From Terana coerulea (lineage: Eukaryota > Basidiomycota > Agaricomycetes > Polyporales > Phanerochaetaceae), in NCBI GenBank assembly GCA_024811115.1, contig JAKOGH010000880.1, positions 175,873 to 239,872 of the forward strand: DNA of 64,000 nt, in the 5' to 3' direction. The position numbers and the translations under genes are program-made. This document shows, piece by piece, positions 10,473 through 45,189 of this stretch (positions are counted from its first letter, which is position 1; every line of letters begins with the position of its first letter). The notes under the pieces are model-generated. The model saw only the letters and a program-made list of their open reading frames with translations. It did not search any database and was not told where the DNA came from.

Positions 10473-11700
10473 GGTTGAATTAAAAGGATCTAAGGTACTT
10501 GAAGAGTCGCTGGATAGGACTGGGATGGGAGTAGGAAGTGAAGGTAGATGCGAGAGTGGGAGAACGCAGGAAGTTGAACATGTCGGGTTTTATGCCAGCT
10601 TCCAGCTCGATCGCGCCCCGAAGTCAGCCTCTTTCCCAGGCTGGAATGAAACGAGGGCTCAGATCGTTACGCCCATCTTCATACCGCTGCAGGTATACAG
10701 CAGCAGTCCTGTACGACCTTCTTGTCAGCATTTTCAGCAGAAATCTGCGAAGGTGTCTCGTACCGGTGTGAGGCGTTACATCCCGTTCGTCGCGTACCTA
10801 CTGGTCTCCCGTCAAACCTTTTGAAACGCCTCCTAGCAGGCCTTAAAGACACTCGCAGAACCAATCATGAGGAACTGTGGAGAAATAGCGTCGAGATCTG
10901 TAAAGCTTTCCATTCGGTGCAGGATGTGGATGATGGACGATGGAAGTGGTCAAGAAGCACGAGCGCCGGCCAGTACTCACTTCCGCTGCCCAGAAAGGAG
11001 CGAAGCGCATCAATTGATCTCCATCAGTACAGCTGGCGGCAAGACGAAGAAGCTTTGACTTGGAACTTACTGACGAATACCGCCAGCACTTGCGCAGGTT
11101 TTCCATCCTTTCCCCCAGGAATTATTCAGTGTGTCTCTAATATCGCGTCAGGATCACATCATATACGTCGACGTTGCCTGGGCAGACCTGCGTAGAGAGC
11201 TCTTAAAAGTACCAGCTGCCACGTCCCGAAGAAGCTCCTCCAAGTCAGGATTTTGTACAAGCCCTCTCTGCCAGTACTTGGAGAGCCAATTAATCAAGCA
11301 CTCTTATCCTCTCCAGAGAGGTGCTGGAGCTCCTAGGGCTCGTCAAGCATAACTCTACCATTTACGCCAAACTTTATAACTTCATTGAGCCTAACATCGG
11401 CTACGACATCCCACTTTAAAAGGTAAGGATATATACCGACCTCATGATCGGCGAGCATCCCGCCGCCTCCTCGCTCCGCCTCTGCCTCAGCAAATCTCGT
11501 GCGACCTGTTTCGCAACAACACGGAGGTCTCCATCGATGCACCGCGTTCTTCGACCTGCGGGCCCCTCGCCCCGCACACTTAGGAATCCACGCTGAGTCG
11601 CAAACGCGTAAGAGCATGTCATGTGTGCGAAGGATATTATGCCGGCTGAGCAATAGTCTCGTGCCAGAGCCCTTCTGGCGCCCTGAGGGCTAGTCCGAAG
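10473..11700. other. Upstream region of coiled-coil gene; no gene seen
   Basis: The part 10576-10643 is the promoter-proximal sequence shared with the decayed copy at 27058-27123. The rest, up to the MITE at 11701, holds only short unconvincing open frames. Confidence 0.4.
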
Positions 11701-12033
11701 CAGCGTTGTGCGAGTCAGTGACTAGTCAGTGACTAGTCAGATAGTCACAGTTTTCTGACTGAGACGCGTTGACTGTGACTTTGACTGAAGGTTCTCCGGG
11801 TCCTGGCGCGGAGATTTCCGTCAGCCAATCACAATTCTCAGTCAGACACAGGACTACGAATACCCCTGCGTGAGAACTTTTTCAGCGTCTCCGCAGAGTT
11901 TGCATTTCAGCCGTGCCGGGTTACCATTTTGGGCGACCAGTCATTGACTGAAATCAAGTCAGTGATGGGTCACTGACTAGACGCATAGTCAATGACTTGA
12001 CTCTCTGACCGAGTCATTGACTGGCCAACGCTG
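11701..12033 (+). mobile_element. hAT-like MITE, copy 1 (333 bp)
   Basis: The element begins CAGCGTTG and ends CAACGCTG, so its ends are inverted repeats, and subterminal GTCAGTGAC/GTCAATGAC motifs repeat several times near both ends. It carries no transposase. The flanks are GTCCGAAG (11693-11700) on the left and CTTTCAAG (12034-12041) on the right: 8 bp on each side, the size used by hAT elements, but not matching each other. They match the flanks of the inverted copy at 44298-44630 instead. By eye the two copies are identical over their whole length. Confidence 0.88.
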
Positions 12034-12275
12034 CTTTCAAGTTCTTCAATCGCGTTTTGCTCCGTTCCACGATGTCCCCAGACCTCCTCGTAACACAGTC
12101 GGTTTTTGTAAATCATGTTAGCGTCGGCTCGAGGTGTAGGCTTCGATGACTTGGCGCGGTTGGTTTCCTTGAGCGACGCTGTCGGATCCTGCTGAGAGGT
12201 ACGTGCTTCCGCTTCCTCGACATTCAGTATGGGCTGACTTCTCTGTAGGATCCGTTTGTTATTTATAGGGGCCAT
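12034..12275 (-). CDS. Small ORF of unknown function, 3' end cut at the MITE
   Basis: The minus strand opens with ATG at 12275 (MAPINNKRILQRSQPILNVE) and reads about 80 codons of hydrophilic sequence before entering the MITE at 12033. If the sequence beyond the other MITE (44639 onward) is placed after it, the frame ends at a TAA two codons later, which suggests an original natural stop. No domain is recognised. It could be a chance ORF. Confidence 0.3.
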
Positions 12276-13410
12276 GTAGTGTCAATTTCTGAAGAAACAA
12301 TCGCAGGAAGCAGCACCTACCCATAGCTCTTAGGAAACCCGTCGGCCGTTCACCATGTTCTCTCGAGTTTGTCAGTGCTCATATCAGGATGCAAGTCCAA
12401 TCGCTGTTTGCATACGGACAGTGAAAGATGTCCCTGTGCAAATGACTGCGTTTTGATGAATGCTGAATTCACGTTGCGCGCATCTACTGCGAGATGTTCC
12501 TGCAAAGCTGTGCATATCTTGAATTGCAGCGATGGGAATGAAAGTGGAAGAACTCTTTTATGTGTGGCGTCCAGTTATCTATCTTGGTAAGCAATTATTT
12601 ATTTCTCGCTCGTACTTTGAATTCAGAGTGGCAGACAAAGTACGCGGATAGGTCTCCGGACCTCCATTATGCGAGCCTTCCCAGTTCTCCTCACAGCCCT
12701 TTGCACGCACAGTGGAGTAAGCGAGGCGATCACTTAGTGGGGCTGTGCACTTTCTGGCGATTTCAAAGAATGAGCGGTCCGCCCAATCAGTAGGCGATAG
12801 TAGAGGGCGGTGCACTGGTGAGTTCTTCTCGTACTTCACGAGCCTAATATGTACTCACTTTGGTCATGGAACAGATGCAGCAGGAGTCCGCTCAGAGCTT
12901 GACCTGAAGCGAACTGTGCACAGTAAGTGACTTCATGTCGGCGGTGATGGATGTTGATCAAGTCCCACGGCAGGCCCCTATCCCTGCGGCTATGAAGTCA
13001 GGAACACCTTCGCTTTGTTCTATCTCAGCCCCTTCGCATGGGGAAACGTATGTTAAGTCTACTATACTCACGATTTTCCAAGACCGGATTCTGTGTAGTG
13101 CACTACCACCAGTGTGCAATAGATGAAGAGTACTGTTCGTCCACTAGTACAGCCCGTCAGGTACACAAGCAGTCAGTACGGAAGGATGTGATCTGCAAGC
13201 ATCCGTGGTATTAGATCCGTCTCCAGAAGCAGTGCTAGGCATTGAGTTTGCACGTTCGAACCTTATTTACTTATCGCTGTCAGTCTCACGGCAGCTCCAA
13301 CGCCAGTGGTTCCTACTGCTATATCATGATGTACGTTGCATATAAATAACCCTTGGATCCATGCACATCCTCACTCAAGAGTCCTTACCACCCGTACAGT
13401 AACCATAGCC
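12276..13410. other. Intergenic, no gene recognised
   Basis: Only short scattered frames are present. A TATA box (TATAAATAA, 13341-13349) near the right end fits the DUF6533 gene that starts at 13411. Confidence 0.4.
13341..13349 (+). promoter_or_regulatory. Probable TATA box of DUF6533 copy 1
   Basis: TATAAATAA lies about 60 bp upstream of the proposed start codon at 13411, a usual fungal distance. Confidence 0.45.
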
Positions 13411-15147
13411 ATGTCACAGCCCACGATTCAAGAACTGACGCAAGAGCTACGGCAGTTGTACGTACTTCATGCGGAGTCTGCACCGCTGATCTAGGCATCG
13501 CGAACCTTACGTGTTCCATAGTCAGACGGGCTCGTACGCCGGGCTCAGCAGTGGCCGGTTCGTGACCCGCACCCATGATCTTCTTGCGCACAATGCTGAC
13601 AGTCTTCCTAGTGTTCACCATGTACGAATTCTTGATCACGCTGGACCAAGAGTGGATGTTCGTCTGGAAGCGGAAAGTTACCCTTCCGTCAATCCTCCTC
13701 ATCTCGATGCGGTGGAATATGGTCATAAGCCAAGTGCTAGGCTTCGTTGATGTACCTCAGGTATGTTCTCGTACGGCTATTCGTTATTTGTGCCTGATTA
13801 GCGCGTTTTTGTAGGCGTTTGTCTTTTCTGTTGCATATGCCAACCTGAATGCTCACACATGATTCGTCCTCAGATGCTTGTCTACGGGGATCCTTCGGGA
13901 AGTATTGAACTATATTCAAACGTGTCAGGTAACAGGTAAGTTATCAACCCAATACCTGTTGCAGGAAATCCAAACTTTGCCAGTATTCACCACGCTGCGC
14001 GTATATGCGCTATGGAGCAATTCAAAATATAAGCACGCCATCTTCCTACTCATCTTTTCACTGGGGATGGCAGCCTTCGCAATGGAACTGGTACGTGATT
14101 TTTCGCTCTTCGCTTATTTTACTTATAAGTGGTCAAGACCAGCGTCGCTGGTATCAAGATCTCCTATATTGGTACTCCGTATGACACGTGCATTTCCACA
14201 TTCAGGAGCTCTAAAGGACTGGACATCATGTGAGTCTGAATTCTTGATTTAAATTTCGCGTAAAATGTTCAACCAGGTAACAGGGGTATGTGATGAGTCT
14301 TGCATCCTCTGCGTACTGACATCTACTCTCAGGCACTTACCTAATCCCCATTGCTCTCATATCTGCCAACCTCCTTGTGCTTGTACTTACGTGGATTAAA
14401 ACTGTGCAGCACTGGCGACAATCGCAACAGGCCGGGATATCTGTACCTATATCCGTCTGTCTTCTCCGTGACGGTGCGTTCATCCTTGCTATCAGGCCAA
14501 GCTGGAGCTAATCGCTACTACTTCAGGGACGTTGTACTTTTTGTGCGCATTTTCTGTCGCCTTGTATATTTTCTCCGCCTTCTCACCTTTTTTTTAACCG
14601 CTGCAGGGCATTCCTTGGGATCAACCTCGCACAAACCATCGCGCCCAACATCAGCGTACGTCATTTACCCGCCCATCCGAGTTGGAACGCACCTCGCTGA
14701 CACGGACGACCTCCATACAGGACGCGAATCCCGTGTATGACCAGTTGTTCCTTGGCTTGGTACGTCCGTTCGCCGCACACCATCACCGCGACTGCTCATG
14801 ATGAAACATGTTGCCCACCGCGCAAGCAGCTTCCGGTCCTCATCGTCCGCTTCATGTTCAACCTCCGGCAGCTCGACGCGGACGGCACCGGGACCGCCAG
14901 TGCGCAATCCGCCTCGCTAAATGGACAGCAGACGGTGCGCTTCGCTGCGCCTGCAGCCACGGTGCCCTCGCTGCTGGGCAACATGGGCGAGACGCTCGAC
15001 CACGGTCATGCGGAGTGGTATATGGAGGACGAGGAGGACAGTGTGTCGGGGGCAGAGGCGTCTGAGGCGCGCGAACTTGAACACACCGGGGAAGGAGATG
15101 TGCAAGTCAGGGCGCTGGGTATAGGTGGGGACACTGGACGGGTGTAA
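13411..15147 (+). CDS. DUF6533 multi-pass membrane protein, copy 1
   Basis: Exon 1 (13411-13457) reads MSQPTIQELTQELRQL and splices into the diagnostic DUF6533 segment EFLITLDQEWMFVWKRKVTL, then PSILLISMRWNMVISQVLGF. Later exons encode TLRVYALWSNSKYKHAIFLL, GTYLIPIALISANLLVLVLT and AFLGINLAQTIAPNIS. The tail begins PVLIVRFMFNLRQLDADG and becomes acidic. Several helices are hydrophobic, so it should sit in a membrane with about seven passes. DUF6533 proteins are abundant in basidiomycetes and their function is unknown. About seven short introns are needed; no certain break was found. A second copy on the other strand at 46023-48088 is interrupted by a transposon. Confidence 0.75.
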
Positions 15148-17143
15148 CTGCCTCGGTACGGCGCGTGTTCGTTCGTGAGCTTGAGAAAGGAAAGATGTAT
15201 AATTACCGGGGACCATCGTGCGCACTGCTGTATAGAGCGGCCGCGGATCGCCCGCAGCACGCTCTGTTTCCCGCACGAGAGTATTGTAAGAACATCCAAT
15301 AACTTACATGCTGAGAAACAATGTGCAATTCTCAAGGTTTTACGTCTCAGTCTTACGCTATACACCTGGTGACCTTGCTCTGTTCTGAGGCTCCCATGTT
15401 TCCTCAACCATGGTGAATTGTCCAGAGCTTGAAAAGCAACGCAGGATGGAGTTTTATACATAAGTTCATATGTGAGAGAAACAGAGTGTTATTGTAATAG
15501 AGATGGGCACGTCCTATTGTGGCGGCGTTCCGCGCGACGCGTGCACCGGAGGCGTCGCGGCCGTGGTAGCGGGCATGCTTGCGACAGCTTGCCCTCGGTG
15601 GGGACCGACTGTGGAGGCGTTCTGCACGACGCATACGCCGGAGTCGTCGCGGGCATGTTTGCGCCTGCTTGCCCTCGGTGGGGAGAACAGACTGCATGCG
15701 TTCCGCACGACTTACACACCGGTCGGAGAGATGACCACGCCATCGCGCGGCAGCCCACCGGCCCAGCATGCTGCAAGTACCTACACAAGCCGCAGCGTTA
15801 GCATGCCACCGAGAAAAAGCGGGGTGAAATACGCACTGGTTTCGAACGTCGCGACGTCGCGTGTTCCCCAGTGGGTCGTCATGGGTGTGGCGTCCCGGGA
15901 GTGCCGGCGGTCGGCTGGGGTTCGCGGTGAGATATATGATGGCATCGAGCCGGGAAGAATGGCCGTATACTGGTAGGCATCGTGCAGATGTGTGCGAAGG
16001 TGGGTGAGGAGGTCGTGTTGCTCTGCTCAGCTGAGCTCAGGGGGTATATATACCCTCTGCAAGGGGACGCTATGGCCCGCGGCCACATTTACCACCAGCG
16101 GCTGTTGACGGAGCTGTGGCATAATGCAGTGGCCGACGTAGTGGGCGCGGAAAGTAGCCGTGGTTCGAATGTGTCGGGAAACAGGGTCGGTGACCCGCGA
16201 TGCGCCACAGGGCCAACGCCAAAGCCTTTCTGGGTGTTAGGAGCTTCTCGTGGGCTGATGGCCAAAGTAGCAATCGTTGGCCCAGAACGTTCATGACTTC
16301 GGCCTTTGCCTGCAACAATGGTACTGTGAGGCAGGGACCGGACAATAGGCGACTCAATTGTCGCTTGCAGACATTATTTGACAAAGTGAACTGCTAATTG
16401 GGCAAAATACCAGTATCTGAACATGAGGACGTGCCGGTGCATGGTGAGAAATCCCCGTGCGTTCTTGTGACGCTGCTCTCTTTCTCGTCTAGGTAAGCAC
16501 TGTTCATTCCCAGACACCTGCAGGAGTCACTGAGCAGAGCAAGTGTATCGATTAAGTATCGCTCCTACAGCCCTAACGAAGCTGGATGTGTCATCGAATG
16601 CCAAGCTGAGCGGGTTGCCAGATGAATCCGAGGCGAACAGAGTCGGGGAGAGCAAGACGGAGAGCGATATGACATTGCAGCGACAAGGAAAACGAGAAGA
16701 GAAAAAAGGCCGTGGTTCGAATGCGCAGATATTGATGTGTACATCGCCGCTTTCGCGAGCACCTTCGTCCTGATGATCATCTAAGGAAATTAGTCAGGAA
16801 AGAAGCCGTAAGAAGCAAAAGGCATACCTGCAGCTCAAATCCAGCGGCTCGAGCAATGCTCACAATCCAAAGAGTGCGAGAAGCGTTCTGACGGCCTTGA
16901 AGAGACTCCTATGATTCGGGACTCGGGAGTCGAGTCTCTGCGTTGGACGTCTTGTATGCTGTAAGACGAGCGGCCCTTTCCTGAAAGTAAACTAATAGGA
17001 TAGTTATTTATTGTACAGGGATGCCCGATCCTGGCTGTGGGCGAGATCTGAATGTGGGACGAATATTCGCAGACATGGCGGCAGGAGGCAAAGCGTGTAG
17101 ACGCCAGAAGACGCCTATGATTTCATTGGGTGACGGAGGCATT
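15148..17143. other. Intergenic, repeat-bearing, no gene recognised
   Basis: Apart from the minisatellite at 15511-15730 I see no coding pattern. The segment separates the DUF6533 gene from the first 1.1-kb element. Confidence 0.4.
15511..15730. repeat. GC-rich minisatellite, about 2.5 units of 80-100 bp
   Basis: Two diverged full units and a partial third share GGCGTTCYGCRCGACGC-like starts and the core TTGCCCTCGGTGGGGA (15590-15605 and 15670-15685). The apparent ORFs on both strands here come from the repeat and are not called as genes. Confidence 0.6.
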
Positions 17144-18240
17144 CATCACGAAAGAGGTTTTAGTTTATATTGTGTTAGATAGGGCATATAGCAATGATAG
17201 CCCCATTGACTTCCTCGACATATATTGTACTACATACCCAGGTTTTGGCTATGGGTTGTAACAGGGGGCTATCGTGCCTTTGCTATGATTCATTATGAAC
17301 AGCAGCTACACGGCGCGTGAATCAAAATGCCGGATTGGGGGAGAGCGACTTATTGATTACATAATTCTAGGATGTTTATTTACACATGAATTACATTGCA
17401 AATAGCGGCGAACCGCAGTACAGAACAGGGATGAGTATCTACTGTGGTCCGAGTCCGTTACGCTACCAGTACCAGTACTCGAGGCCAAGGTCTCGGGCTT
17501 CGTGAATCAGAGGTCAGTTGCAAATTCTTGTGAAGAAGATAATATTTACATACACGCACAGCTGCACATACGAAACCCTGAAGTCCCGAGCCTGTAGAGA
17601 AGAGTGAGTGCTGGGGGCGGTCCTTGTTCGCAGCAACACAAGGACTCACTAGCAGTCCAGAAAGCCGCCACTGCTGGAGTATTGGCAGCATTGTGGGCCA
17701 CTGGACATTGCTGTCCATGCATAGCTGCTCCAGTGTAGTCAGTGACTCGTGAGTGTTGCTGATAGTAGTAGCAATACATGTAAAATCTGGGACTTACTGT
17801 GGTGTATGCAGGTGAAATGCGGACTTCAGAGACGATGGCAGACAGCACGTCTTTGTACGTCGCGCGTGAAGACCCGGAATCGGTCTCTCGGGCGCTCAGG
17901 TCACGCCGTTAGTGAAGGGGCGATAGAAAAGGACCGAGGTACGTACAATTTTAGGTGCAGGCGCAGAGCCTCAGCTCCGTGCATGCTCGGGTATAGAATG
18001 CCAGAGCGAATGGCTTCTCGCATAGGCTCACATAAACTCTAATAGAACTTAGTCAGCCAACTGGAAGCTCCTCAAGAAGAAGGCATCTACTCGTGGTTCT
18101 CAGAGACCGTAGTAGAGCGGATCATGTACTGTAGAGCATCATAGGCTCTACTAGCCTATCATATCTTTTCTTTCAATGGATAACTCCGAGTACGTACCAT
18201 AGACAACATCAACTATGTAATTGAAACCCCTTTCCTGATG
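17144..18240 (+). mobile_element. 1.1-kb non-autonomous TIR element, copy 1
   Basis: Starts CATCACGAAAGAGGTTT and ends AAACCCCTTTCCTGATG; the second is the reverse complement of the first with 2 mismatches in 17. The flanks repeat 2 bp (TT at 17142-17143 and 18241-18242). The interior shows no transposase. Two further copies lie at 54082-55176 and 55429-56528 with the same ends and near-identical length. Confidence 0.85.
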
Positions 18241-18560
18241 TTCCCACGCCTCATTCGCATCGCACCAGTCCTTTGAACACTTTTCGTTATTCCGCTGCTC
18301 GCTTGGCCAAAAACACCTTGTGTTATTAACGTATATATGTATTACCACCAGAATCTACAGACTTTACACCCACAGCGAGCTCGGAGTCCCGAATAGCAGG
18401 TCCAGCACGGGCGCTTCTACGTAGACGAAAGTGGAAGGTCGGCCGAATTGGGTTGGTCACTTCCCGATTCAGAGCCTGAAGGCATTCGAAGCACGGTCAG
18501 CCTCGCTCGAACGTATAAGAACGGCGACGGGGACCCAACCTCTCCCTCACCTCAACAGCC

Positions 18561-19624
18561 ATGTTCGTCTTCGTCGACCTCCTCGTCGCGCTCGTTGCGA
18601 CGCTGCTCGCGCCGTTTGTCGCTCACTTCTCTGGCACTTGGGGCGCTGTGTCCTTCTCGTCTTCAAGCCTCGCTTCTCGTGTTGGACTCGCTCTTGATCT
18701 CTGGGCTCCCTTTACTTCTATCTTCTCTGTCTATGACGACAACAACATCGCTACTCCCTCCGTCCTCAACGTCTCTGCTGTCTTTGACGTTCTCTTCGAC
18801 GTCATTGGGAGACTTGGACCTGAACACTGGCTATTTTGAATACATCGACTCGGACGTCTGCCTCGTTTCATCAACGTTTCCTGAGGCTGTCGCTTCCGTG
18901 AATGCTTCCGCCGAACTGTCAATCATCGTCACCGACCCTCTTTCTGTCGACACCCCGGCTCCCACCCCGCATTGGCATCCGTTGAGACTGCCGCCGCCGT
19001 GGACGCTGCCATCGAGTCACAGATCACCGTCTTCGGCGCTCCGGCTCCCTTCACCCAAGCTCAAGTACCTGCGACGGGCGATGACGACTTCGTCGAGAAC
19101 TTGCACTTCAAGGCTCTATCCATCCGTGCATCCTGGACGTACGTTCTTGGCCGCTTGTTTGCCTTCTTCGACCCATCCGCCATCGCCGTCTTTGCATTGG
19201 TCGCTTCTCAGCTTCTCATGGTACGTTTCAACACCTGCACTCGTGCTCATCTTGGCTGACTGCGTACACAGCTGCCCGGGCTATGGCGCACTATCCGTGG
19301 ACAATGGGAAGATATCACCGACATGGGACCTGTAACTACGGATTTCTTCGTCTCGGCCGGCGACTGGCACTTCTTGAACCTGTGGGTCGACAAGCCGGAC
19401 AACATTAGCTCCACGGCCAAGGATGACGACTGGGTTCGGATTCCTCGCGAAGTCCTTCCAAGAACTCTGGCGCGATGGACGTGCGGCTGGTATTTGGACA
19501 CGCCCGGTGAGTAACAGAAACTTTCATTTATTCACATCGTATGCTTACAAAGTCGCAGGGTCTGAATCAGTTCGAAGTTGCTCTGGATGACGATCGCGAG
19601 ATGCGCAAGGAGGCCAAGTCCTAA
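18561..19624 (+). pseudogene. Frameshifted copy of lineage-specific 'gene A'
   Basis: Closely matches the open gene at 49944-50999 (-). It begins MFVFVDLLVALVATLLAPFV, a hydrophobic signal or anchor segment. An extra G near 18807 (ATTGGGAGAC against ATTGGAGAC) leads to a stop within ten codons. Two extra bases near 18968 restore the frame, and another single-base insertion near 19466 breaks it again before the conserved end REMRKEAKS. Three independent indels argue for a dead copy, although sequence error cannot be excluded for each one. Homology extends upstream to about 18420 and downstream to about 19860. Function unknown. Confidence 0.7.
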
Positions 19625-19859
19625 GCCGTCTCTACCGTCCAAGACCTTCAAGTTGCACGCGAGCTTGGCGAGCCATCTCACATCTGCCATCCCTCGAAAC
19701 TTCGCCCACCCATTGACTACAGTACCGCCGTGGCTGATATCGTGGGCATGGCTATGCAAGTGACCGGCGAGAGCGCGGCACTGCGGTCATGAAACTGAGT
19801 TCTGCACGATGCGGGCTCAGCCCCTCGATGATCGACCACGGTATGTCGATGGTGTTGGT

Positions 19860-22800
19860 GAGGTTTCGGCAGACTCGCATGACGCCATGTGCGCTGCGAA
19901 GGCAGCGATTCCCGCTCCTGCCTGTGACTCTCGAACAAGTATATTGATGTATTGGGTTTCCCGTTTTAATTAATGACCTCGATTTGTACTATTCTGGACC
20001 AGTATTGTAGGTTGTAGGCTTCACTGTATACGTACCCCGTACATATTTTTCATATTTCCGTAATGTATGGCAAGTGATATTCTGAATCTGAAGAACATAG
20101 GAGGATTTTTCTCGCTGTTATCGCCCTCTAATGTGAAAGTAAACAAGTCTATCATATATGATTGTACTAGAGATGGATATATAACCAGTGCGTCACGTCG
20201 CGTCGGCTCAGGTTTAAGCATGGGCCCAGACTGCGGGCGGCGGTTTAGGGAGAACAATTCGGGTGGCGGCGGCAACAGATACCCCCAGTGAAGTCCATGA
20301 TGGTGAAAGCCGGGTGAGTGATTGGATGGTAGGAGATGCAGATATGAAGGATGAGGGATGGACTAGTTGGAAGGCAGCAAAACCAAATGGTCTGCCTTTG
20401 TCGCCAGCAAAGCGCCGAAGCCAGTAGATCTGAGATAACCGGTGGTGGGATTGAGGAACTCTTGGATGGTGGCAGTATGATATGCCTCCTGGTAGTCGGT
20501 GTACGTCAGTGTAGCCTGGTGGTGCGTCGGGAAGGTCTGAGGGTAGGCGTGATATGGGATACCAGGCGAAGGGAACGTCTCTTCCGCATAGCCGAGGAAT
20601 GCATCCTGAAATGCCATGCTTCGGAACCTGTGGTCAGAGGGTGCGCTTTGTGAGGATAGTCCGTGCTGAGAGTAACTGTCGGCGGGGTATGCGAAGGACG
20701 ATGCGTAGCCATCCGCGGGAACAGAGAGCATCGTCATAGAGGGACCATGATGTGATTCCGAGTAAGCGTTCGGGTAGTGGGTGAGGCTCGAGCCCAGACC
20801 GGACTGAGGTTTCGCAGTGAGATATATGAACGCGTTTGCCCGGGGCGAGTGGAGGAGTTGGGTCGTGCATGATGCTGCGTATGCGAAGAGAAGATAATCT
20901 GCGCTGCTGCCAGTCCTCTCGAAAAGAAGGTATATATATGCACCTTCCCAGACGCCAGACCTTGCGCGTCATAACGAAGCTACGAGCAAGCGCAGGAGGC
21001 CTAGATGGCATCGGCCAGGACAAAGCTCACCTCGCTGGCCACTGTGGTGAAGGTGGTGCCAGTAAACTTGAGGAACAAATGTCGACGCATTGTGCGCTCG
21101 GTGGTCTTCGCGATCAAAGCGCTGGTAAGGCTAAAGAAGGCCACGCCTGGAAGACACAGTCAGACTTAACGGACTCTGTTCCACGGCGGCACACCAGCCC
21201 AGCGCACCCAATGGTACCTGCGCCAGTTGCAATGTCAGCGTGTCGCCGAGCAAAACGGAAGCGAAGTACAACGCACAACGCAGTGGGCGGTGGCCACAGG
21301 TGGTGTTTGACAATCGGCGGTATTTTAACCGGCTTAAGCGGGAAAGAGTCGCAACTTTGACCCAGGTCAAAGGGAGTGGTCCACAAGACATCCATCTTGC
21401 CCCTCCGCGGCGGTTCTAGACTCGGAAAATCACGCAGTGAGCTCAACATTCGGACTTGGTTAACGCGACGTACAGAGAGCCTGCACTTTGCACGACGTGA
21501 AGTGTTTGTGACTATGTCTACATGCATCTTGAGAGATTATAGATCCGCTGCTACAATGCAGTGTACGCGCAGCAAGAGAGCTGCTGCCCTGGACTGGCGT
21601 AGACGGTGGAGGTGGTGTCAAAAGGCAAAGCGCCTAGACGCCGAAGCGACGAAGGCGCTCTTACTGGCTGCCAGGGCGATCACTCCTGCTTGGGCTGTTC
21701 CCACGCCGCACATGTTGTCTACGGGCCATTTTTCATAGGCTGTCGCCTGCGACATACCGAAAACGCACGGAGGAACCTGTGTAGCGGTATACGCAGGCTG
21801 CCATTCAAGCATCTGTCCAGGACAAGTCCCTAGCTCAAATCTCACATAACTTACGTCGGCGCTGCGCAGGGTAGACCTAGTGGAGGGCCCTCAACTGTAT
21901 CAGCTACAACCAAGTGCTGAGGTCGAGGGAGCTCTTCAAAAATTCTTACGGATGGTGCTTGAAAACACGTAAGTGCTCAGCCGACTTCGTGGCGCTCATC
22001 AACAACGACTCTAGATCCTATCATAGACTCTGGTACGTCTTCATAGAACCAAACTCCTACATAAAAAACTCTTACAAGTTGCTTTGCAGCATATCAAATA
22101 CAGCATTCATTTCTCTCGGCTCCCCTGTCTCGGCCTATGTCCTATGTCGCCTTCCAATGCCAGAACCTGTGTACATCCGAGCCGGACTCATCATCGACTT
22201 GTATCCCATATCCCGCTGGCGACGTCGCACCTAGGGATTTTATGCCACCTAAATCACCAATAACAGTCGTAGATGTCTTCCTCACCGAAACGCGAGGACT
22301 TCCATCGCTGTGCTGTGCATATCCTTGGGCCCGCGGACCTCGTGTCTGAAAAAAACAACAGGCGCACAATAACACGCAGGAATACGCGAGGACGAAATAG
22401 GCATATTGATTAACGGTACAGCAACTGCTGAGCAAAACTTAAGTGCCGCAGTGCTGCCGCCGGAAGCATTACCACCTGTTTGAAGCGAAATCCGCGTGAC
22501 GCTGGCAATTCCGAATTCAACAATGATGGGCATGCGGGCGTGTGGACGAAGTACGTACGGTGGAATTCTATGCGCCGACATACATGCTTTATAATCTAAA
22601 AACTCATCGTGGCCGACTTCTGAGCGTAAGCAGGATAGCTCAATTTACCCAGAGACTGCCGTCTTCTTGCAAGTCGTGGCGGAAGAGTGGCAGTCTGTGA
22701 CTTCGTTGAGCTATGACTGCGAGCCGCGTATGAAGACGTGTATGAAGACGCGTACATGGATAAATGCGCGGTGCATAGACGCGCACGCAGACAATTGCGC

Positions 22801-22950: not shown

Positions 22951-23012
22951 AGAACCGTGCTTACTGAGCAGGAGCAAGGCCAATCGCGTCGAGGCAGGCT
23001 CCTGAAGGTAAA

Positions 23013-32310: not shown

Positions 32311-32691
32311 TGCTCGCACGACGCACTGCGATACAATACGGACTACTAATACCAGTGTTGGATTATCCCGGCTATCCTTAATTACGAACTTTTGGACGCA
32401 ATACACGAAGCATGTACGTGTGCGGTGTCGATTTTTGTAACGGGGTGGTGTTGATGTTGCTTTCTCGGCAGGAGTTGACTTGCCCGCTGATTCAGCTCCG
32501 ACGTCTGAAAAGCGAGTTCCCCGTTCTCAATCTGGTTAGCCTACGAAGCGTTGGGGCACTGCGCATTGCCGCGGGACCTCTGGTAGATCGCTGTTGCGCT
32601 TGGGTGGCTGGTCTTTTCCAACCACAACCGTCGTTCGCCCTTTTAGACCCTCTTGCTGGAGCAGTACTTGCGTCGAACTACCGCGGCCAGT
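32311..32691. other. Intergenic, no gene recognised
   Basis: Gap between the PLC-like gene and the Cys-cluster gene. No coding pattern seen. Confidence 0.4.
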
Positions 32692-33719: not shown

Positions 33720-33903
33720 ATGTATCGTGCATATAAGTATTGCTACCCCCTGACATTACATGTCCGTGTGCAAATAAGCCCCATGTTTATACCGTAAATC
33801 CCCACTCAATGCCCGTTGTTATTATATAAGTCCATAAAACCCGAATTGAAACAAGCAAGTTCGCACCACCGGTGAAACATTCTGGGACCAAAGAGACAGT
33901 GTT

Positions 33904-35537: not shown

Positions 35538-37444
35538 ATGTTTCACTCGACACTCCGACATACTTCACTCGCGCTCGCGGCGGCGTGTGCAGCAGAAGCT
35601 GCCACGAGCCTACCTGCAGAGCTCTTCTCGCCCTCGGTCGCCCAGAAGATCCTCAAGACCGCTCAAACCGTACAGAGCCCGTCCAAGTACCCGCAATACA
35701 CAGACCGAGTCGAAGGAGCTTGGCAGTACTTCAGCCCTGACACTTGGACGAGCGGGTTCTTCCCCGCGACACTTTACGAACTGAATCGGCGCGCCTCGTT
35801 ATGTCCATCTGCCGATCTGAATGGGACGGATTGGGTGGCTCTAGGACAGACTTGGAGTGCGGCGGAGGTGCCTCTCCAGACGAAGACGGGTGTAGGACAT
35901 GATGTCGGTTTCTTGAGCTTTCCGTTCGCGGAGGAGCTGCAAATGTGCGCATGCAGCTTGCTATATGCATATATGTCGCTTCATACTCATCGCCGCGAAC
36001 AGACACCCAGATAACCAGTCGGCAATTGACGGTGTGAGCAAGTTCGCTACTGAGCTCGCTGCCCGGTTCAACCCTATTGTGGGATGCACGAGGAGTTGGG
36101 ATACGTCGGACCCTACGGATTTCCAGGTTATAATAGACAACATGATGAATCTCGAGGTGAGTTCGTTTGTGATCCTCTTGCTGCATGTATATTAAGCACG
36201 CGGCCTTCACTAGGTGCTCTTCTTGTCCGCCAACCAAACTGGAAACCACACGCTCGTTGACATCGCCACTTCCCATGCAGACAAAACTGCTGTGAATCAT
36301 ATTCGTGAGGATGGTACGTGATGTTGTGAGTGTAAGACCTTCGCAGTGCTGTGACATTTGTCAGGTTCATCTTTCCATGTCGTTGATTACAACTCTACAA
36401 CCGGTGTTGTGATCAGTCAACACACCTCGCAGGGATATGCCGACAACAGGTAAGTCCGCCGTATGTGCATCGTCTCCTATTCTTACCGAAGGGTTTCATT
36501 TCATAGCACATGGAGTCGTGGACAAGCGTGGGGTATTTACGGTTTCGCTAATAGTGCGTTCTTTTCTATCGCCTATAGTACCGTTTGCCTAACAAGCAAG
36601 CTCTAGTGTTCAAGCATACACAGAACACAAGCTATCTCGAGACATCTCGAAGGATGGCCGGTTACTTCCTCTCGCATATACCGGACGATGGTGTTGTCCC
36701 ATGGTACGTCACCGCTGCTTTCCGTACACCCCGGACTTGGGCTGAGCTATCCGTCTTCGCTGCATACAGGGACTTCAATGCACCGCTCGACCCTCCACGA
36801 CCCGCTGATTCCTCGGCGGCGATGATCGCAGCGAATGGGCTGATCCTCCTTTCGCAAGGCGAGCTCTCGCTACAGCCACCTAACAAGACTGGCTCGGACT
36901 ATTATGTCGGCGCTGCTATTGACGTGCGTAGTCTGTTCTCGAAGTCTTCTCGATATCCATCGGGGCTGTCCACGAACCGTCGAGGACAGTTCCATGTGAT
37001 ACTGCGAAGATTACCGCCGTGATCCTTGGCTGAGACTCAACTTTGCTTGGATAGATTATCACGAACATGACGGCTTTGGCGTGGCGCCCTGACTGGCAAA
37101 GTCTACTGGCTAACGGGACGGTCAACAACCCGCAGCATAACAATCTCACTGGTATTGTCTATGGTGGGTTCGCAAATCCTGTTTTATGGGGGCGGTTATG
37201 CTAACGAGCTTCGTCCACAGGTGACTTCTACTTCGTGAAAGCTGGTAACGACTTGGTGTCTCTTGGCGTGGCGACTTGCAACGGCAGCCTCACGGGTACC
37301 CTACCGTCTTCTCCGTCAACATCACCAGCACCAAGTGCCTCACCGTCCGCTACGGACAGGACAACTTCTAGCGCGGAGAGAAGCCTGGAAACGACACTCA
37401 ACATGGTGGTCATGCTTGTAGTATTGGCTTTCCTGCTCTCATAA
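35538..37444 (+). CDS. Glycoside hydrolase family 88 protein, secreted, probably GPI-anchored
   Basis: Family 88 enzymes remove unsaturated uronic acids from oligosaccharides left by polysaccharide lyases. The start at 35538 gives MFHSTLRHTSLALAAACAAE, a signal peptide. The catalytic region shows the two Asp blocks of the family, VGHDVGFLSFPF and FQVIIDNMMNLEVLF, plus the WSRGQAWGIYGFA block. The end has a Ser/Thr/Pro-rich stretch (SSPSTSPAPSASPSATDRTT) and a final hydrophobic tail (MVVMLVVLAFLLS), as in GPI-anchored surface proteins. Roughly eight short introns interrupt it, and many N-glycosylation sites (NGT, NQT, NHT, NST) support secretion. It stands alone here, not in a CAZyme cluster. 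Confidence 0.87.
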
Positions 37445-38537
37445 CGATTGCACACGACTCTGTTCCCCTTTCTTGCACGGACTTCTTCATTTGCGATTTG
37501 AGATTGATATCAATGTAAATACTGCAAAGGACAATAGTTACACCCAGGCTATGAACAGCGCACCATTGTGAATATTGTGCCCTCTCTTCTCCATTCTCCG
37601 CTTCGCTGACTACATCGCGCCCATAGACCCACTGTCCGAAAGCCTGTTGAGTTTTCAAGATGTCGCGCACCGCTGGCAACTGCTATCCACGTGAAATGTC
37701 ACACGGAAATGAGCGTGTGATGTTGTCGGGGTCCAGAGAAGGTAGAGGCCCGATAGACATGGTGAGGGAGCCGACGACGGTAAGCTAGAGCACCGTAAAG
37801 AGCTTCGATCAACCATAGGCCAAAGCGTACGTGGTCGGTCGTGAGAGACAAAAGGCATTCAGGTCGCAGGGCTCCGTCGCAGCTCCGCGCGCTTCGTCCT
37901 AAGAGCGCAGCCCCTGGTGGCGTACGTCTGCCTTCCACATATCATTCTTCCTCCGAGTCTTGAGTCCTGTGTACCTTGCCGAGAACAGTGAGGTCCGAGT
38001 GGACAAAGGCCTTGCCAAAGACGGAGGAAGCGAGATGTTCGTTGTAGTTGCTACAGAGACGAAGAGAGCGCCCGTTTTTGGCTCCTGTGGAGATCTTGCC
38101 AGGGCGGGCAGTCGAGGCGCCGTAGATAGCGGAGCCACTAACTTTCGGCGCCATCGTCGTCCCCAGCGAGCTATGGCCCAACAGCACCCATGAATCGTTC
38201 GGAAAGCCTGCAGGATCCTCTTCAACGCCGTCGAAGCCACTGAGAGCATTTGAGGTAGGCTGTGAACCGCAGAGTCGAGATGGAGGAGAGGATGAAGATG
38301 GTCGTCAAACGGGATCAAGGTCTGATCTGGCTGATTGATAAGGCAGGGGGAAGTTTTTGTCGGAGTTTCAATCTCCGAGCCGTATATAAAGGCTTCGGGT
38401 TGCGTTCTCCTTCGCCCCTTCTCCCCGCCGCAGCTTTCCCACGGTTGCTAAATTCACAAATTCCATCCACGTTCTACGACGACCTCGAGCATTCGTTTGC
38501 TCGTCCTCAGTAACGTCCGCCGCCGCGCCTATACAAC
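37445..38537. other. Intergenic region with one doubtful minus-strand ORF
   Basis: The minus-strand ORF at 37942-38151 (MAPKVSGSAIYGASTARPGK, about 70 residues) has plausible composition but no recognised domain. The right end holds the TBP promoter. Nothing else stands out. Confidence 0.35.
38383..38390 (+). promoter_or_regulatory. TATA box of the TBP gene
   Basis: TATATAAA about 150 bp upstream of the ATG at 38538. Confidence 0.55.
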
Positions 38538-39678
38538 ATGTCTTTCGCCCTTCCAGCTCGTCAGGTCACTTTCGGCCGCTCCGCGGCGGTGCCACCTCAG
38601 CAGCAGTACCAGCAGTCGCAGCCGCAGCCCTATGCGCAACAGCCTCAGCCTCAGCAGGCCGAACGGCCTGGCTCTGCCCTACCAGACGAACTCCTACCTT
38701 CCTGGCCCGTCGAGCCTCGCGCTGCCTGGCCCTGTACCCACTGCGCCGACGTATCAGTCGCAGCCATTGCCGACTCCTGCGCCGTCGCAGCAGCAGCAAA
38801 CGTCGGGCTCTCCGGTCGCCAGCGGTAGCCACTCCCCCGCCATTGCCGGCCCATCCACCCCTGCACCTGCCGCTGTACCCTCGACGCCTGTGCCGTTGAC
38901 CCTCGAGCAGCAGCACATCACCGCCGTTGAGGGTATCGTACCCACTCTTCAGAACATCGTCGCGACGGTGAACTTGGACTGCCGACTTGACCTGAAGACG
39001 ATCGCCTTGCACGCCCGTAATGCGGAGTACAACCCCAAGGTTTGTCCACTTTGATTTGCTCACAGTGTAAATGTCGGATACTATCCGTCATTGCACCAAC
39101 AGCGTTTCGCGGCCGTGATCATGCGTATCCGTGACCCGAAGACGACTGCTTTGATCTTCGCGTCGGGCAAGATGGTCGTCACCGGTGCCAAGTCGGAGGA
39201 CGACTCGCGTCTGGCGTCGCGCAAGTACGCGCGTATCGTTCAGAAGCTTGGCTTCGACGCCAAATTCTCCGAGTTCAAGATCCAGAACATCGTCGGTAGC
39301 TGTGATGTAAAGTTCCCTATCCGTTTGGAGGGTCTTGCCTACAGCCACGGACAGTTCAGCAGTTACGAGCCTGAGGTGCGTCGTCATCGATTCGTTCACT
39401 CGATCGTGTGCTTACATATCTGTATGTAGCTATTCCCTGGTCTGATCTATCGCATGATCAAGCCCAAGGTCGTGCTGCTCATCTTCGTATCTGGGAAGAT
39501 TGTCCTCACGGGTGCCAAGGTGATTATTCATCCACCATGATTGGCTCAGTGCTGTCCTTCGGGACGTTCTTTACTGAGTACGCTGACACTGTCATCTCAT
39601 GACCAATAGGTCAGAGAAGAGATCTACACAGCTTTCAATACCATCTACACCGTGCTGTGCGAGTTCCGCAAACCGTAG
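38538..39678 (+). CDS. SPT15: TATA-box-binding protein
   Basis: General transcription factor that bends TATA-box DNA in the nucleus. The conserved core starts at [20 protein letters not shown] and contains both saddle repeats: [40 protein letters not shown] and [20 protein letters not shown], then [30 protein letters not shown] and [17 protein letters not shown]. Introns: 39040-39102, 39376-39429 and 39520-39609. The N-terminus is Gln/Pro-rich. The ATG with the best context (38538, [20 protein letters not shown]) is not in frame with the core: the frame must change near 38660, or translation starts at 38632 ([20 protein letters not shown]). The core is intact. Confidence 0.93.
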
Positions 39679-40540
39679 ATGGCTGACCGCATGCCATTTG
39701 CCGCCCATCCATCTGCCGTGCTGCATCGTCGTCGCCCATATGGAGTGGCTCGTCTCTGATCCACGGTGCGGATGGGGAGGCATATTAGAAAACGTGATAA
39801 GGGATGCATTGGACGAGGAGCGGACGTAGTGCACGAGAGATGCTCCCTCCTCCTTACCCTTTCGAACTCACATTATACCTCACCCACAGTTTCTTCGGAC
39901 CTTCCTGTCTTTTCTTGGTCGTCGCGCATCATCCCCTATCCCCCACCCCGCAATAACATATAAACCTACAGTAGCCATTACATTAGTGTGTCATTATTGT
40001 TTCGTGTATACAATGTATTATATCTGCATTCTTGATGTTTTGTCTCCTTAAGATATTTCGGAGCGTGGTCGTACCTACTTGAGGCAATGTCTTGACATCG
40101 GCGCAAACACTCGTGAACCTGCTCAAACATGTACGCTTTGTCCCCTCTGGCGATGATCATATTACTCATGCGCGGCTTGCTAGGAATCATAGCGCCGAGT
40201 GTTGGTATTCCAAGACACTGCAGTTGAATGCTGTACGGTTTGACTCGCGAGGAGAAATATTCTGGTATGCGTTCAAAACATTCACGAGTGCCAGAACCTT
40301 ACGCTTTAGTTAACAACGTCGTTGAAGGACTCAGTCGAAAATCATTCAACTTCGTGGCATAGACATAGCGCGACATTCGAGAACCTTCCTCCATGCATTC
40401 CTCGACACGTCGACCGGCGCCTCCGTAAGAAATTCACACGCACGCGCACCGTGGGCTCAAGTGCCTTGAATTGAAACGAGTTGCGGAGCAGCCGTCGGAG
40501 CCTCTTTCAGAAGCATCGTACTTGAAGGCGGGTCATCAAT
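39679..40540. other. Intergenic, no gene recognised
   Basis: The first 300 bases are the TBP 3' side. The last part (about 40480-40540) begins the duplicated block shared with 25.3 kb. Confidence 0.4.
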
Positions 40541-40748
40541 AGGGACTTTGGCACCGGAATATATTCCGGCCCAATTTGGTAGCCACCCAAAAGGTTGCTA
40601 TCACGGCGGGACCCGAGGTTGGAGCCCCGCTAACTGAGGGACCAATGGGGCGTGTACCTTGGATCCCGCCGTGATGGCTGTTGATGCGAGCCGTTTTAGG
40701 AGGCATACCAAATGAGGACCGGAATATATTCCGGTGCCAAAAGTCCCT
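40541..40748. mobile_element. 208-bp MITE with 3-bp target duplication
   Basis: Begins AGGGACTTTGGCACCGGAAT and ends, in reverse complement, AGGGACTTTTGGCACCGGAA, so the inverted ends run about 40 bp and include the palindrome CCGGAATATATTCCGG at both ends. It is flanked by AAT (40538-40540 and 40749-40751). The duplicated region at about 25068-25076 shows the same sequence without the element and with one AAT (CATCAATGAC in this orientation). A 3-bp duplication suits the PIF/Harbinger group, but no transposase is present. Confidence 0.85.
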
Positions 40749-40818
40749 AATGACTTCACCTCCATCTCGGTTTGTTCCGTACTTTGACTGCACGCCACAA
40801 AGATGCTGACCTAATATG

Positions 40819-40831
40819 TTCTGGAAGGTTC
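40819..40831. promoter_or_regulatory. Heat-shock element of HSP20 copy 2
   Basis: TTCTGGAAGGTTC is a perfect three-unit TTCnnGAAnnTTC site for heat-shock factor, about 260 bp upstream of the start. A looser site (TTCTGCGAATGTTC) follows at 40925-40938. Confidence 0.65.
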
Positions 40832-41091
40832 GGCAGCTGGATAGACTCGGAATGCGACCACCTGCGAGAAGCGACCAACGAAATTGCTGGAAACAACGCC
40901 ACCGAGTAGTGAGTCGGCAGCCGGGTTCTGCGAATGTTCTCGAGGCGCTGTGCGTCGTCTAGAGCGGAGGATCTGGAAGTATATAAGGCCACTGCGAGCA
41001 GCGTACCGCCGTCACCAAGCTCAAGTTTAAACAACTCACCTCGATAAAAACAAGCCCTCGCTACTCTCGCTCGAGTTACTCACTCGCGGAA

Positions 41092-41710
41092 ATGGCATCC
41101 TACTGGTTCCACGAGCCATTCTATACCCTCACCGACTTCGACCGTCTCTTCGACGAGGCCTTCTCTCAGCGCGCACACGGCAACAACCACGACCAGGTGC
41201 AGCGCAGAGAGGGTCCCGAGAATAGTGCCCCGAGGGTGCTGAGACCTAGGTGAGCGACGAACATTATCCCCAGCCCTTGCCGAGAATCGACGCTGATGCC
41301 TCTTCCTCAGGATTGACGTCCACCAGAACGACGAGACGAACACAGTCACTGCGACGTTCGAGCTCCCTGGTCTCAACAAGGAGAACGTGAGCATCGATGT
41401 GCACAATAACACGCTCACGGTCTCGGGCGAGTCCAAGACGTCGTCTGAGCGGGATGAGAACGGCTACGCTGTGCGCGAGCGCCGCTTCGGCAAATTCTCG
41501 CGGTCGATTCCTCTCCCTCAGGGAACCAAGGTATGTGCTGTGCAGATTTTTCAGCGTTGCAGCAGGTTGATGACCATGTTTTAGGACGAGGAAATCAAGG
41601 CATCCATGGAGAACGGCGTACTCACCGTGACGTTCCCAAGACTACGCCCGAGCAGACACCCAAGAAGATCACTGTCTCTTGAAATGTTACGGACAACTGT
41701 AGGAAGATGA
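41092..41710 (+). CDS. HSP20 small heat-shock protein, copy 2, altered C-terminus
   Basis: Starts MASYWFHEPFYTLTDFDRLF at 41092. Introns lie at 41250-41310 and 41531-41584. The alpha-crystallin domain is whole (VTATFELPGLNKENVSIDVH ... RERRFGKFSRSIPLPQGTK). In the last exon one base is missing compared with copies 1 and 3 (TTCCCAAGACT), so the usual end TTPEQ.PKKITVS is read in another frame and the protein runs on to a stop at 41708-41710, losing the C-terminal IXI-type anchor. The expected stop would be at 41680-41682. It is either a functional variant, a new pseudogene or a sequence error. TATATAAGG at 40980 is the likely TATA box. Confidence 0.75.
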
Positions 41711-42736
41711 CATCCAAATTGTAATATACTTAATTCGCAACAATGAATGCTCAAGTTGGTCTCTGTTTATGGGGCGTATAACAGTGTGCAATCGGTTAAT
41801 AGCCTCGTCGCAGTGCCAACAGTGGATACTCAACTTATGCAATAGCCTATCGGGATCGGTGACGATGCACGACTCATCTTCCCTTCAGATACACAACTTA
41901 TATTCCATTTTGTTTCACGAGGCCTCAGTCGGTTTTGTTATCTCGTTGAATGTTTGCCACATGCGTTTCTGAGCCTCCGATGCTCTGTGCTCTAAACTCG
42001 CGGGCTCCGTCGGAACAGCAGGGATCTGAAGCAGCCGTCACCGCAACGTTGATAATAGGGAATATTAGACTCACATCTCCGCGGCTATCTTGGTCCTTTC
42101 TGTTTTCCTTGGCTTTGTTGTTCAACTGTACCTCGCGCGCTTTACGCAGATTGACGAGTCGTGTACAGGCTGCTTTACTTCGACGCCCCATAGAAAGAAA
42201 GCAAGGTACAAGCCTGATGTAATATTGTAGGCTACGTCGCCGTGTAATGTCTGAAGGGAGTGAGGAAAGGTTAAACCAGCTCAAGTGCTGTCGGCGTTCG
42301 TAAGTAAGTTCAAGGCGCCCTCCGAGTCCGCTTTGCCGCCGCCAGCAGGGCTCGAGCGGCGTCGGCGGTAGCGCTGCCGATCGTTTGATGCGCTTCGCTC
42401 CTTTCTAGGGAGCTCGAGTGTTGGCCAACGCTCGACGTTCTTCACCACTTCTGTCGTCCACGTCCTATTGTTGCTGGTTCTTGTCAGGCTTGTTTGGTAA
42501 TGTTTGATCCCAAAGCTTCTGCCTTCCTAATGCGGGTCTAATATTCAACCATACTCCAGATCTGCTACTTGGTAGTTGAAATGGGCATGAAATAAGAGTC
42601 TTGAGAGGCTCGGTAATTGCTCAGTTTAATCGCTCGTGGTCGTTATTGATGGTCACTGTAGGGAAAGCACGACGAACAGGCGCATTGCGTACTACTTGGC
42701 TCCGCACAACTTGCACCGGCGTGGCATGCGAGCCAT
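41711..42736. other. Spacer between HSP20 copy 2 and GST copy 2
   Basis: In copy 1 the same gene ends are only 140 bp apart. Here about 0.9 kb of unrelated sequence separates them, beginning soon after 41750 where homology stops. No ORF of interest and no clear terminal repeats were found. Confidence 0.45.
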
Positions 42737-43641
42737 TTACTTCTGCGCCAGAAGCTGAGCCCTGCGGGCGAAGACCTTCTTGAGAGCGGGCTTTTCCATG
42801 AGCTTCTTGTGCCAGCTGGTCCACATTATTCAGGAAGACAGATGCTTGGGGAACCGCAACACTTACGCCATGGTCTTCGGGAACTCTGCAGTCCAGTCGT
42901 GATCCTTGAGGATGAAGTTGATTGCGGATACATTCCACCTACACACCACAGCAAGCGGAGGTAAGTACTCCGTGTATAGCGCTCCTGAGATAAAGAGCGG
43001 CACTGACGGCACGAAAGCAAGATCTGCGACCGTGGCCCGACCGCCGACGAGGTACTCCTGCTTCGCGAGTACGCTCTCCAGAACGCCGAACACCCGCTTG
43101 ATCTCGTTCTCGTACCGCTCGATCGCGCTGGGCACCTTCTCAGGGTGGTAATTGTGGAACCACCCCGCCTGGCCGTAGTACGGGCCCTGACCCGACGCCT
43201 GGAAGTACAGCCACTGGAGCTGGACGAACTTGTCATTGCCGTCGGTGACGGAGATCTTGCGCTCCGTGTCGTACTTGTCCACCAAGTACAGGATGATGGC
43301 GTTCGACTCCCTGAAACGCGGGTTAGTTTGGCTTTGGTATCCCTGCGCAAAGATAGTACGCACCAGAGAGCGAAGTCACTGTTCTTGTGGTCAATGATAG
43401 TGGGAATGCGTCCATTGGGGTTGTACTTGACATGCGCTTCGCCCTTCTGCTCATTCTTTTGGAAGTCGAGGTAGATGGACTCGTACGTCAACCCGAGCTC
43501 TTCCATGACTGCTGCGACCTTCCTGCAGAGTATGGTGTCGTTAATGTTAAGGCGGGTCTCCAGATCTATGCGCAATAGTACACACCAGCCGTTCGGGCCC
43601 GCCTTATGGGTGAAGAGAGTGAACTGCTTGCCGTGAGACAT
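42737..43641 (-). CDS. Glutathione S-transferase (Ure2-like), copy 2
   Basis: Starts MSHGKQFTLFTHKAGPNGW at 43641 and follows copy 1 closely: KVAAVMEELGLTYESIYLDF, NPNGRIPTIIDHKNSDFALW, ESNAIILYLVDKYDTERKIS, QASGQGPYYGQAGWFHNYHP and an end RRAQLLAQK with stop at 42737-42739. The four introns are at the same places. No frame break seen, so both GST copies look usable. The largest differences are in the fourth exon (WNVSAINFILKDHDWT against WNMAATGFLMKDFDWT) and the end. The TATA box GTATATAAGG is conserved near 43733. Confidence 0.9.
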
Positions 43642-44297
43642 GGTGGTAGCAAATATTCAATGAAGTGGTCGATGTGCTGAAGACCTCGAGAAGGAGATGA
43701 TTGCTGCTTGATGTCACCTCGACCAAGCCCTTCCTTATATACATTTACGTCCAGGAGTCTGCCTCGACGCGATTGGCCTTACGCGTTGCTCGCTAAGCAC
43801 GGCCCTTGGCGATAGTGTCGCTCAAACTCAGCAGCAATCACACTACAAGCGTTCAATGGATTAATAGTTGAGCACTGACAGTGTCGGGCACATTCACCGA
43901 CGCACCTCGATGACAGAGCCAGTCTCCGCCCTGTCCGTGTACGCGTCTTCGCACTGCGCATTTTCCGTGTACGCGCCTTCGCACGCGGTTCGCGGCCGTA
44001 ACTCAACGAAGCCATAGTCCGCCACTCTTCTACCACAAAGCCGTGCAGGAAGAAGGCAGTCTCTGAATATGTTGAGCTATCCCGCTTACGCGTGCAGAAT
44101 CGGCTAGGATTGGACTTCGTAATCCGAAGAATACATGTTAGCGCATTAAGAACTTTTCCATCATACGTACTACGTACCGTGTCCACACGCCGGCACGACC
44201 ATCGCGGTCAAATGCGGATGCGCCAGAATCGCAGGGGGTTCGCGTCGGGCGTTTGATAATGCGCGCGGCGGCATCGCAACGGCTGAGTCCTTCGGAC
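43642..44297. other. GST copy 2 promoter and flank up to the MITE
   Basis: Homology with the region upstream of GST copy 1 reaches about 43805. Beyond it a short repeat (CGTGTACGCG(T/C)CTTCGCAC at about 43938-43985) is the only feature. No gene is seen. Confidence 0.4.
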
Positions 44298-44630
44298 CAG
44301 CGTTGGCCAGTCAATGACTCGGTCAGAGAGTCAAGTCATTGACTATGCGTCTAGTCAGTGACCCATCACTGACTTGATTTCAGTCAATGACTGGTCGCCC
44401 AAAATGGTAACCCGGCACGGCTGAAATGCAAACTCTGCGGAGACGCTGAAAAAGTTCTCACGCAGGGGTATTCGTAGTCCTGTGTCTGACTGAGAATTGT
44501 GATTGGCTGACGGAAATCTCCGCGCCAGGACCCGGAGAACCTTCAGTCAAAGTCACAGTCAACGCGTCTCAGTCAGAAAACTGTGACTATCTGACTAGTC
44601 ACTGACTAGTCACTGACTCGCACAACGCTG
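44298..44630 (-). mobile_element. hAT-like MITE, copy 2 (333 bp, inverted)
   Basis: Reverse complement of the element at 11701-12033, of equal length and identical as far as I can read. The flanks are CTTCGGAC (44290-44297) and CTTGAAAG (44631-44638). The left flank is the reverse complement of copy 1's left flank GTCCGAAG, and the right flank is the reverse complement of copy 1's right flank CTTTCAAG. Confidence 0.88.
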
Positions 44631-45189
44631 CTTGAAAGTGCGTAAAGCGTTGAGAATGAGAGGACGCGAGCACCCTCGTACTCATTGGCTGGCAGAGATC
44701 GGCACAAATTGATCCGCGGATGCCTCCGAGCGCCGGGAGCACCGGGCCTCCGAGTTGCTGGTCGCAACTTCGTATCGACTCGACCGCAAGCACCTGGTCA
44801 AGTTGCTGAGCTGCAGAATAATGATAGGCTGGAAATAGCATCTCCTGCCTCTCGCTACTCTTCAGCTTAGTGGACATAATGCGTTAAGCTGTGAGTCGTA
44901 TTTCGTACGGTCTGTTTCGATACGGTGAGCCTGAACTGCGTCTGCTAAGAAGGGTCAGTGAGGCTGACCAGAAGCCCACAGTGGTACTACCAGCCAGTCA
45001 GCCTCAATCCCCGCAGACAGCCTCTCTCGGTCAAGGGCATCCCGGAGAGGCTTCTTCTCTCCACACCAGCACTCATAGTACAAAGTATACTAAACCACTC
45101 CGTTCTACTCTTCGCGCTCTTCACACCCTTCTATCACCTACTCTCTTTACTCTTCTGTTACACGCTACTCTTCATATCCTTCCATATCA
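44631..45189. promoter_or_regulatory. Upstream region of truncated coiled-coil gene
   Basis: Parts of it (CTCATTGGCT, ATTGATCCGCGG) recur upstream of the copy at 59318 (58790-58850), so the promoter was duplicated with the gene. Confidence 0.4.

Follow-up and report, generated by a model that had tools for sequence, protein, structure and literature searches.

A miniature transposon pair with exchanged target-site duplications bounds a probable 32-kb inversion and may have made it in a single step

How did a segment of 32 kb come to lie between two copies of one miniature inverted-repeat transposable element (MITE), neither of which carries a target-site duplication of its own? The question is raised by a window of 64,000 bases (positions 175,873-239,872 of contig C688, containing no N) in an assembly of 48.4 Mb and 896 contigs, probably from a fungus. 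The two copies lie in opposite orientation and are identical at 333 of 333 bases. Along the element, GTCCGAAG precedes copy 1 and CTTTCAAG follows it; for copy 2 the order is reversed, with CTTTCAAG ahead and GTCCGAAG behind. Flipping the interval between them restores a perfect 8-bp duplication at each copy (Table 1). A chance match of these flanks is negligible because, counting both strands and the sites themselves, GTCCGAAG occurs five times and CTTTCAAG three times in the window, giving an expectation of about 1e-9 for two exact matches at fixed places. An earlier, sequence-only reading had described two identical 333-bp hAT-like MITEs in opposite orientation with swapped 8-bp duplications, and this description was confirmed letter for letter. 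It is suggested here, with confidence evenly balanced, that the segment is truly inverted and that the MITE itself made the inversion by one aberrant transposition, the event known as hybrid element insertion.

The signature is not confined to the window. A pair new relative to the earlier reading, on contig C668, shows the same exchange across 3.8 kb between copies that are again identical over 333 bases. When the 5' flank of each of 12 copies was compared with the 3' flank of every other (132 ordered comparisons), matches at 8 of 8 bases arose only between the partners of these two pairs (four matches), the next best being 6 of 8, seen twice. The C668 copies moreover share two bases, at alignment columns 209 and 239, that occur in none of the other 12 aligned rows, the overlap duplicate on contig C667 apart.

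Table 1. Positions of the MITE pairs, their flanks and neighbouring features
Feature	Sequence	Positions	Strand	Basis
Half-site A, GTCCGAAG, outer flank of copy 1	window	11693..11700	+	flank read
MITE copy 1, 333 bp, ends CAGCGTTG...CAACGCTG	window	11701..12033	+	
Half-site B as placed by the proposed inversion, CTTTCAAG, inner flank of copy 1	window	12034..12041	+	
Interval proposed as inverted, 32,264 bp with the inner half-sites counted	window	12034..44297	.	flanks and model
Partner of half-site A, GTCCGAAG on the minus strand (CTTCGGAC as read forward), inner flank of copy 2	window	44290..44297	-	
MITE copy 2	window	44298..44630	-	
Half-site B, CTTGAAAG, outer flank of copy 2	window	44631..44638	+	
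Plus-strand copy, GCGAGTTG before and ATGCCCGC after	C668	7603-7935	+	
Minus-strand copy, along the element preceded by ATGCCCGC and followed by GCGAGTTG	C668	11714-12046	-	
Initial 46-47 bp of a different repeat; three near-identical copies elsewhere measure about 620 bp	window	11654..11700	+	
Open frame, glutathione S-transferase N-terminal domain, start about 650 bp from copy 2	window	42826..43641	-	
Paralogue pair, co-oriented after flipping back	window	13368-15014/46132-48129		
Paralogue pair, co-oriented after flipping back	window	18421-19876/49705-51139		
Paralogue pair, opposed after flipping back	window	8910-10636/25457-27118		
Paralogue pair, opposed after flipping back	window	17141-18241/54082-56529		

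The element belongs to a small family. A search of the genome returned 16 match rows, 14 of them copies and the other two parts of a single fragment on C582, and searches with the end patterns brought in two further pieces, a 5' fragment on C596 and a 3' end on C140. Each of these counts is a minimum, as only the best candidates were scored. C667 carries the C668 copy within an overlap of contig ends, and the copy was counted once. Flanks were examined for the 14 copies and C582. With C101, C582, C596, C140 and the overlap copy on C667 set aside, and after two ends (3' in C868, 5' in C352) had been re-placed by eye, eight single copies had ends that could be placed: six carry a perfect 8-bp duplication and two an imperfect one (C352, 6 of 8 bases; C693, 7 bp if shifted by one base, judged by eye, and 4 of 8 in register). 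The terminal inverted repeats of hAT elements begin with the consensus CAGNG, as do the ends CAGCGTTG and CAACGCTG, and together with the 8-bp duplication of the single copies this is what is expected of a hAT-type MITE. The single MITE of contig C881 lies within a candidate element of 1,010 bp (L065:856-1865) with 16-bp perfect inverted repeats and the 8-bp duplication GCCTGCGG.

Comparison of the copies with one another bears on the origin of the pairs. Among 13 copies, excluding the overlap copy on C667 and the C582 fragment, two of the 78 possible pairs are identical, and these are exactly the two pairs that share a contig; the nearest other pair differs at 2 sites. If 14 copies were spread at random over 48.4 Mb, 0.12 pairs would be expected within 32.6 kb and the probability of two or more would be 0.006, a value that would rise if insertions cluster in favoured regions. 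Given this identity and closeness, each close pair most likely descends from one copy and not from two unrelated insertions. The family's two close pairs are each inverted with exchanged duplications; direct or unexchanged close pairs are absent among the copies found.

A single event could produce this arrangement. After replication, a transposase acting in trans would bring together the 5' end of the MITE on one chromatid and its 3' end on the sister, and both ends would insert in the opposite sense at a site 32 kb away. One chromatid would thereby gain a second, identical, inverted copy together with an inversion of everything between, the 8-bp duplications of donor and target would end up divided between the two copies, and the other chromatid would be left with an empty donor site. 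The same event would have occurred independently on C668, with 3.8 kb between the copies. The outcome was modelled by a script on random letters, in which the 5' end was taken from one sister chromatid, the 3' end from the other and the target from the same chromatid in inverted sense; the product equals, letter for letter, that of recombination between inverted copies that each carry their own duplication. The statement of the sequence-only reading that reversed-end transposition creates new duplications holds for that mechanism, which would leave one new duplication common to the breakpoints where two exchanged duplications are found, but it does not extend to the ends of one site on sister chromatids, whose product is that of recombination.

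The letters at the breakpoints are therefore shared by the two mechanisms, and PMC2775673 calls hybrid element insertion and ectopic recombination "strikingly similar", to be told apart by whether the copies are identical or chimeric. Identical copies at the breakpoints with exchanged duplications, as hybrid element insertion predicts, are found in both pairs. Ectopic recombination likewise predicts inverted copies with exchanged duplications, which are present, and also chimeric copies, which are absent, both pairs being identical. By the distinction drawn in PMC2775673 the two pairs would fall on the side of transposition, although the distinction is not final, since copies made by local transposition would also be identical before they recombined and gene conversion could equalise them. 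The missing chimerism accordingly speaks only against recombination of different parents; identical parents would hide it.

This raises the possibility that a local transposition of the MITE during replication first placed an identical, inverted copy close by and that ectopic recombination between the two later flipped the segment. Such a history is a serious rival, even if we think it less likely: it accounts for both the identity and the closeness of the copies and gives the same letters, and a published analogue exists in In(2L)Cy, which is read in PMC7642927 as transposition followed by recombination with the donor site. Nevertheless, it needs two steps in each of two cases, namely insertion in inverted orientation (about one half each time) and a later flip over only 333 bp of homology, and it leaves room for close direct or unexchanged pairs, of which none is seen among the copies found. 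The one-step insertion is weighted above recombination for this reason, both close pairs being inverted and exchanged.

Several observations weigh against the one-step insertion. First, there are only two pairs; recombination of two locally transposed copies would write the same letters, with gene conversion able to maintain their identity; and the C688 pair, although identical, has no private base at the variable columns, only its own combination. Second, no autonomous element with the ends of this MITE was found: searches with the end patterns at up to 3 mismatches returned only family members, the 5' fragment on C596 and the 3' end on C140. The hAT dimerisation domain, whose presence counts in favour of the one-step insertion, has 13 matches in the genome, and at the two of these 13 loci that were scanned for 8-bp duplications with matching ends there were none. 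C596 was considered as an autonomous partner and rejected, holding only a 30-bp 5' fragment, as was C140, which has only the 3' end in common and no matching start within 1.5 kb upstream. Third, no allelic contig at the breakpoints was found in the same assembly with about 2.5 kb from each side of both. Fourth, neither of two other MITE families served as an independent control. The TA-duplication family (44 match rows, 40 scored of 53 candidates in the genome) has two close pairs, an inverted one on C539 (26 kb apart, 93% identity) and a direct one on C861 (41 kb, 95%), and was rejected because a TA duplication is useless for recognising an exchange; in a 544-bp family (15 match rows) complete copies form no close pair. 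Finally, the repeat fragment that ends at half-site A is predicted by no model. Its similarity to the other repeat copies stops exactly at the half-site A duplication and is not continued at the partner half-site. In six other copies found by pattern and in C117, what lies past the half-site differs from the sequence after the partner half-site at 44290, and the next 19 bp of the other copies do not occur in the window at up to 3 mismatches. Given these differing continuations, the repeat was cut within one base of the duplication, either beforehand or afterwards; it is a possible exception to the absence of loss or gain beside the breakpoints that hybrid element insertion predicts. As an empty-site test the repeat was discarded, the other copies neither restoring nor contradicting the join.

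Two observations stand beside these. Contig C839, of which 8,000 of 28,527 bases were compared, is 92-94% identical to parts of window 47744-62487 and stops short of the breakpoints. Window 51276-57191 and 57289-58261 are passed over in its first 8,000 bases, and the contig may, judging from this alignment, be the other haplotype with large insertion or deletion differences. Another MITE-like element lies at 47374-47745 of the window, with long inverted repeats (ACTGTACATTAATGACCTGACAGGG) and an apparent TA duplication; it represents the family with 44 match rows described above.

It could also be argued that the inversion arose in assembly, by a flip of the contig at an identical inverted repeat of 333 bp, and that the true chromosome holds two normal insertions. 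The pattern in both pairs is exactly what such a flip would give; however, this is improbable for three reasons. First, C667:14615-23030 and C668:1-8392 overlap over 8.4 kb at 99.0% and yet were left as separate contigs; the differences are 39 substitutions and 32 indels, of which 29 involve one or two bases. This looks like the ends of long-read contigs, two haplotypes also being possible, and long reads would span 333 bp. Second, both contigs show identical flanks on either side of the plus-strand copy of the C668 pair, although the reads behind them may be shared. Third, a flip leaves the closeness and the identity of both pairs unaccounted for. The assembly explanation is thus weakened. 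Least credible is the model of the sequence-only reading, in which two unrelated insertions of the family later recombined: it yields the exchanged duplications, but recombined parents that differed would have retained differences where both pairs are identical, and random closeness would have had to arise twice (P about 0.006). What stands of that reading is a real inversion bounded by two MITEs, which is well supported; that the copies were separately inserted before recombining is not the best account of their identity and of the state of both close pairs.

The genes of the window do not help to decide the matter. It had been offered in support of the inversion that flipping back brings the two DUF6533 genes, and likewise the two copies of gene A, into the same orientation, but among gene-sized pairs across a breakpoint two of four become co-oriented and two of four opposed (three of five co-oriented if an 86-bp match at 10934/42460 is counted), and gene orientation was rejected as evidence. 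Neither the window nor the 8,000 bases compared of C839 contained paralogues spanning the joined sites A and B, and Rfam and tRNA searches of the window returned nothing. The open frame beside copy 2 encodes a glutathione S-transferase N-terminal domain, and its best solved relatives are the PcUre2p glutathione transferases, in which we take Pc to stand for the white-rot fungus Phanerochaete chrysosporium. This likeness, together with the gene names given in the sequence-only reading, is the basis for regarding the DNA as probably fungal. With copy 2 so near its start, the inversion would have changed the upstream context of this frame; an effect of the flip on its expression is speculation. 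Inside the flipped interval, 22455-25071 and 40749-44273 form an inverted pair of diverged blocks (77-89%), each with a glutathione S-transferase-like frame, and their similarity stops 16 bp from half-site A. A unit of 1.1 kb is present in three copies at 95-97% (17141-18241, 54082-55176 and 55426-56529), of which two are arranged in tandem.

Ectopic recombination between transposon copies is the usual reading of exchanged target duplications. In the present case those letters are joined by identical copies, by closeness and by recurrence within one family, as single-step aberrant transposition predicts. With confidence that falls just short of evenly balanced, it is proposed that this probably fungal family of cut-and-paste MITEs repeatedly produces natural inversions, each in a single step, through sister-chromatid hybrid element insertion, its close pairs being born inverted, identical and duplication-swapped; the same joint reading, held just as tentatively, would make this in effect a replicative inversion by a non-replicative element. 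Should populations hold chromosomes with one MITE but never with both unflipped, natural inversions would gain a one-step origin that is directly testable, and short MITEs would become active makers of inversions and not only passive homology. One group wrote in 2020 that inversions by single-step aberrant transposition were not known to them from wild populations.

Intramolecular replicative transposition of bacterial elements such as IS26 or Tn3 gives the same end product, an inversion between old and new inverted copies with the duplications divided, but these elements copy by replication whereas hAT elements cut and paste, and the extra MITE copy must therefore come from the sister chromatid. 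It is already known that transposons make inversions with exchanged duplications, from Galileo, and that transposases make inversions, from experiments with P and Ac/Ds. PMC2775673 describes natural inversions by Galileo in Drosophila buzzatii, which, as here, have copies of a DNA transposon in opposite orientation at both breakpoints and exchanged target duplications; there the copies at 2z3 are chimeric, which its authors take as proof of ectopic recombination, whereas in both pairs here they are identical, and Galileo has 7-bp duplications and long terminal inverted repeats in place of a 333-bp MITE with 8-bp duplications, probably in a fungus. Atlantic cod (PMC12368964) also has hAT-derived MITEs at inversion breakpoints, but as tandem accumulations at large inversions read as ectopic recombination, where the pairs here are single copies with exact exchanged duplications. 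Reversed-ends transposition of maize Ac/Ds (PMC8225341) likewise involves a hAT-type element, an inversion made by transposase and 8-bp duplications; it needs two nearby elements, loses the segment between them and leaves one new common duplication, where the pairs here have two exchanged ones. In mechanism the pairs would resemble hybrid element insertion of the Drosophila P element and sister chromatid transposition of maize Ac/Ds, in which the sister-chromatid ends of one element are used together. According to PMC2775673, hybrid element insertion leaves identical copies at the two ends of the inversion, with one donor and one target duplication. The P and Ac/Ds events are known from experiments, whereas transposition of the MITE would be read from sequence, and there is a fair chance that the MITE pairs show in nature a mechanism whose known cases come mainly from the laboratory.

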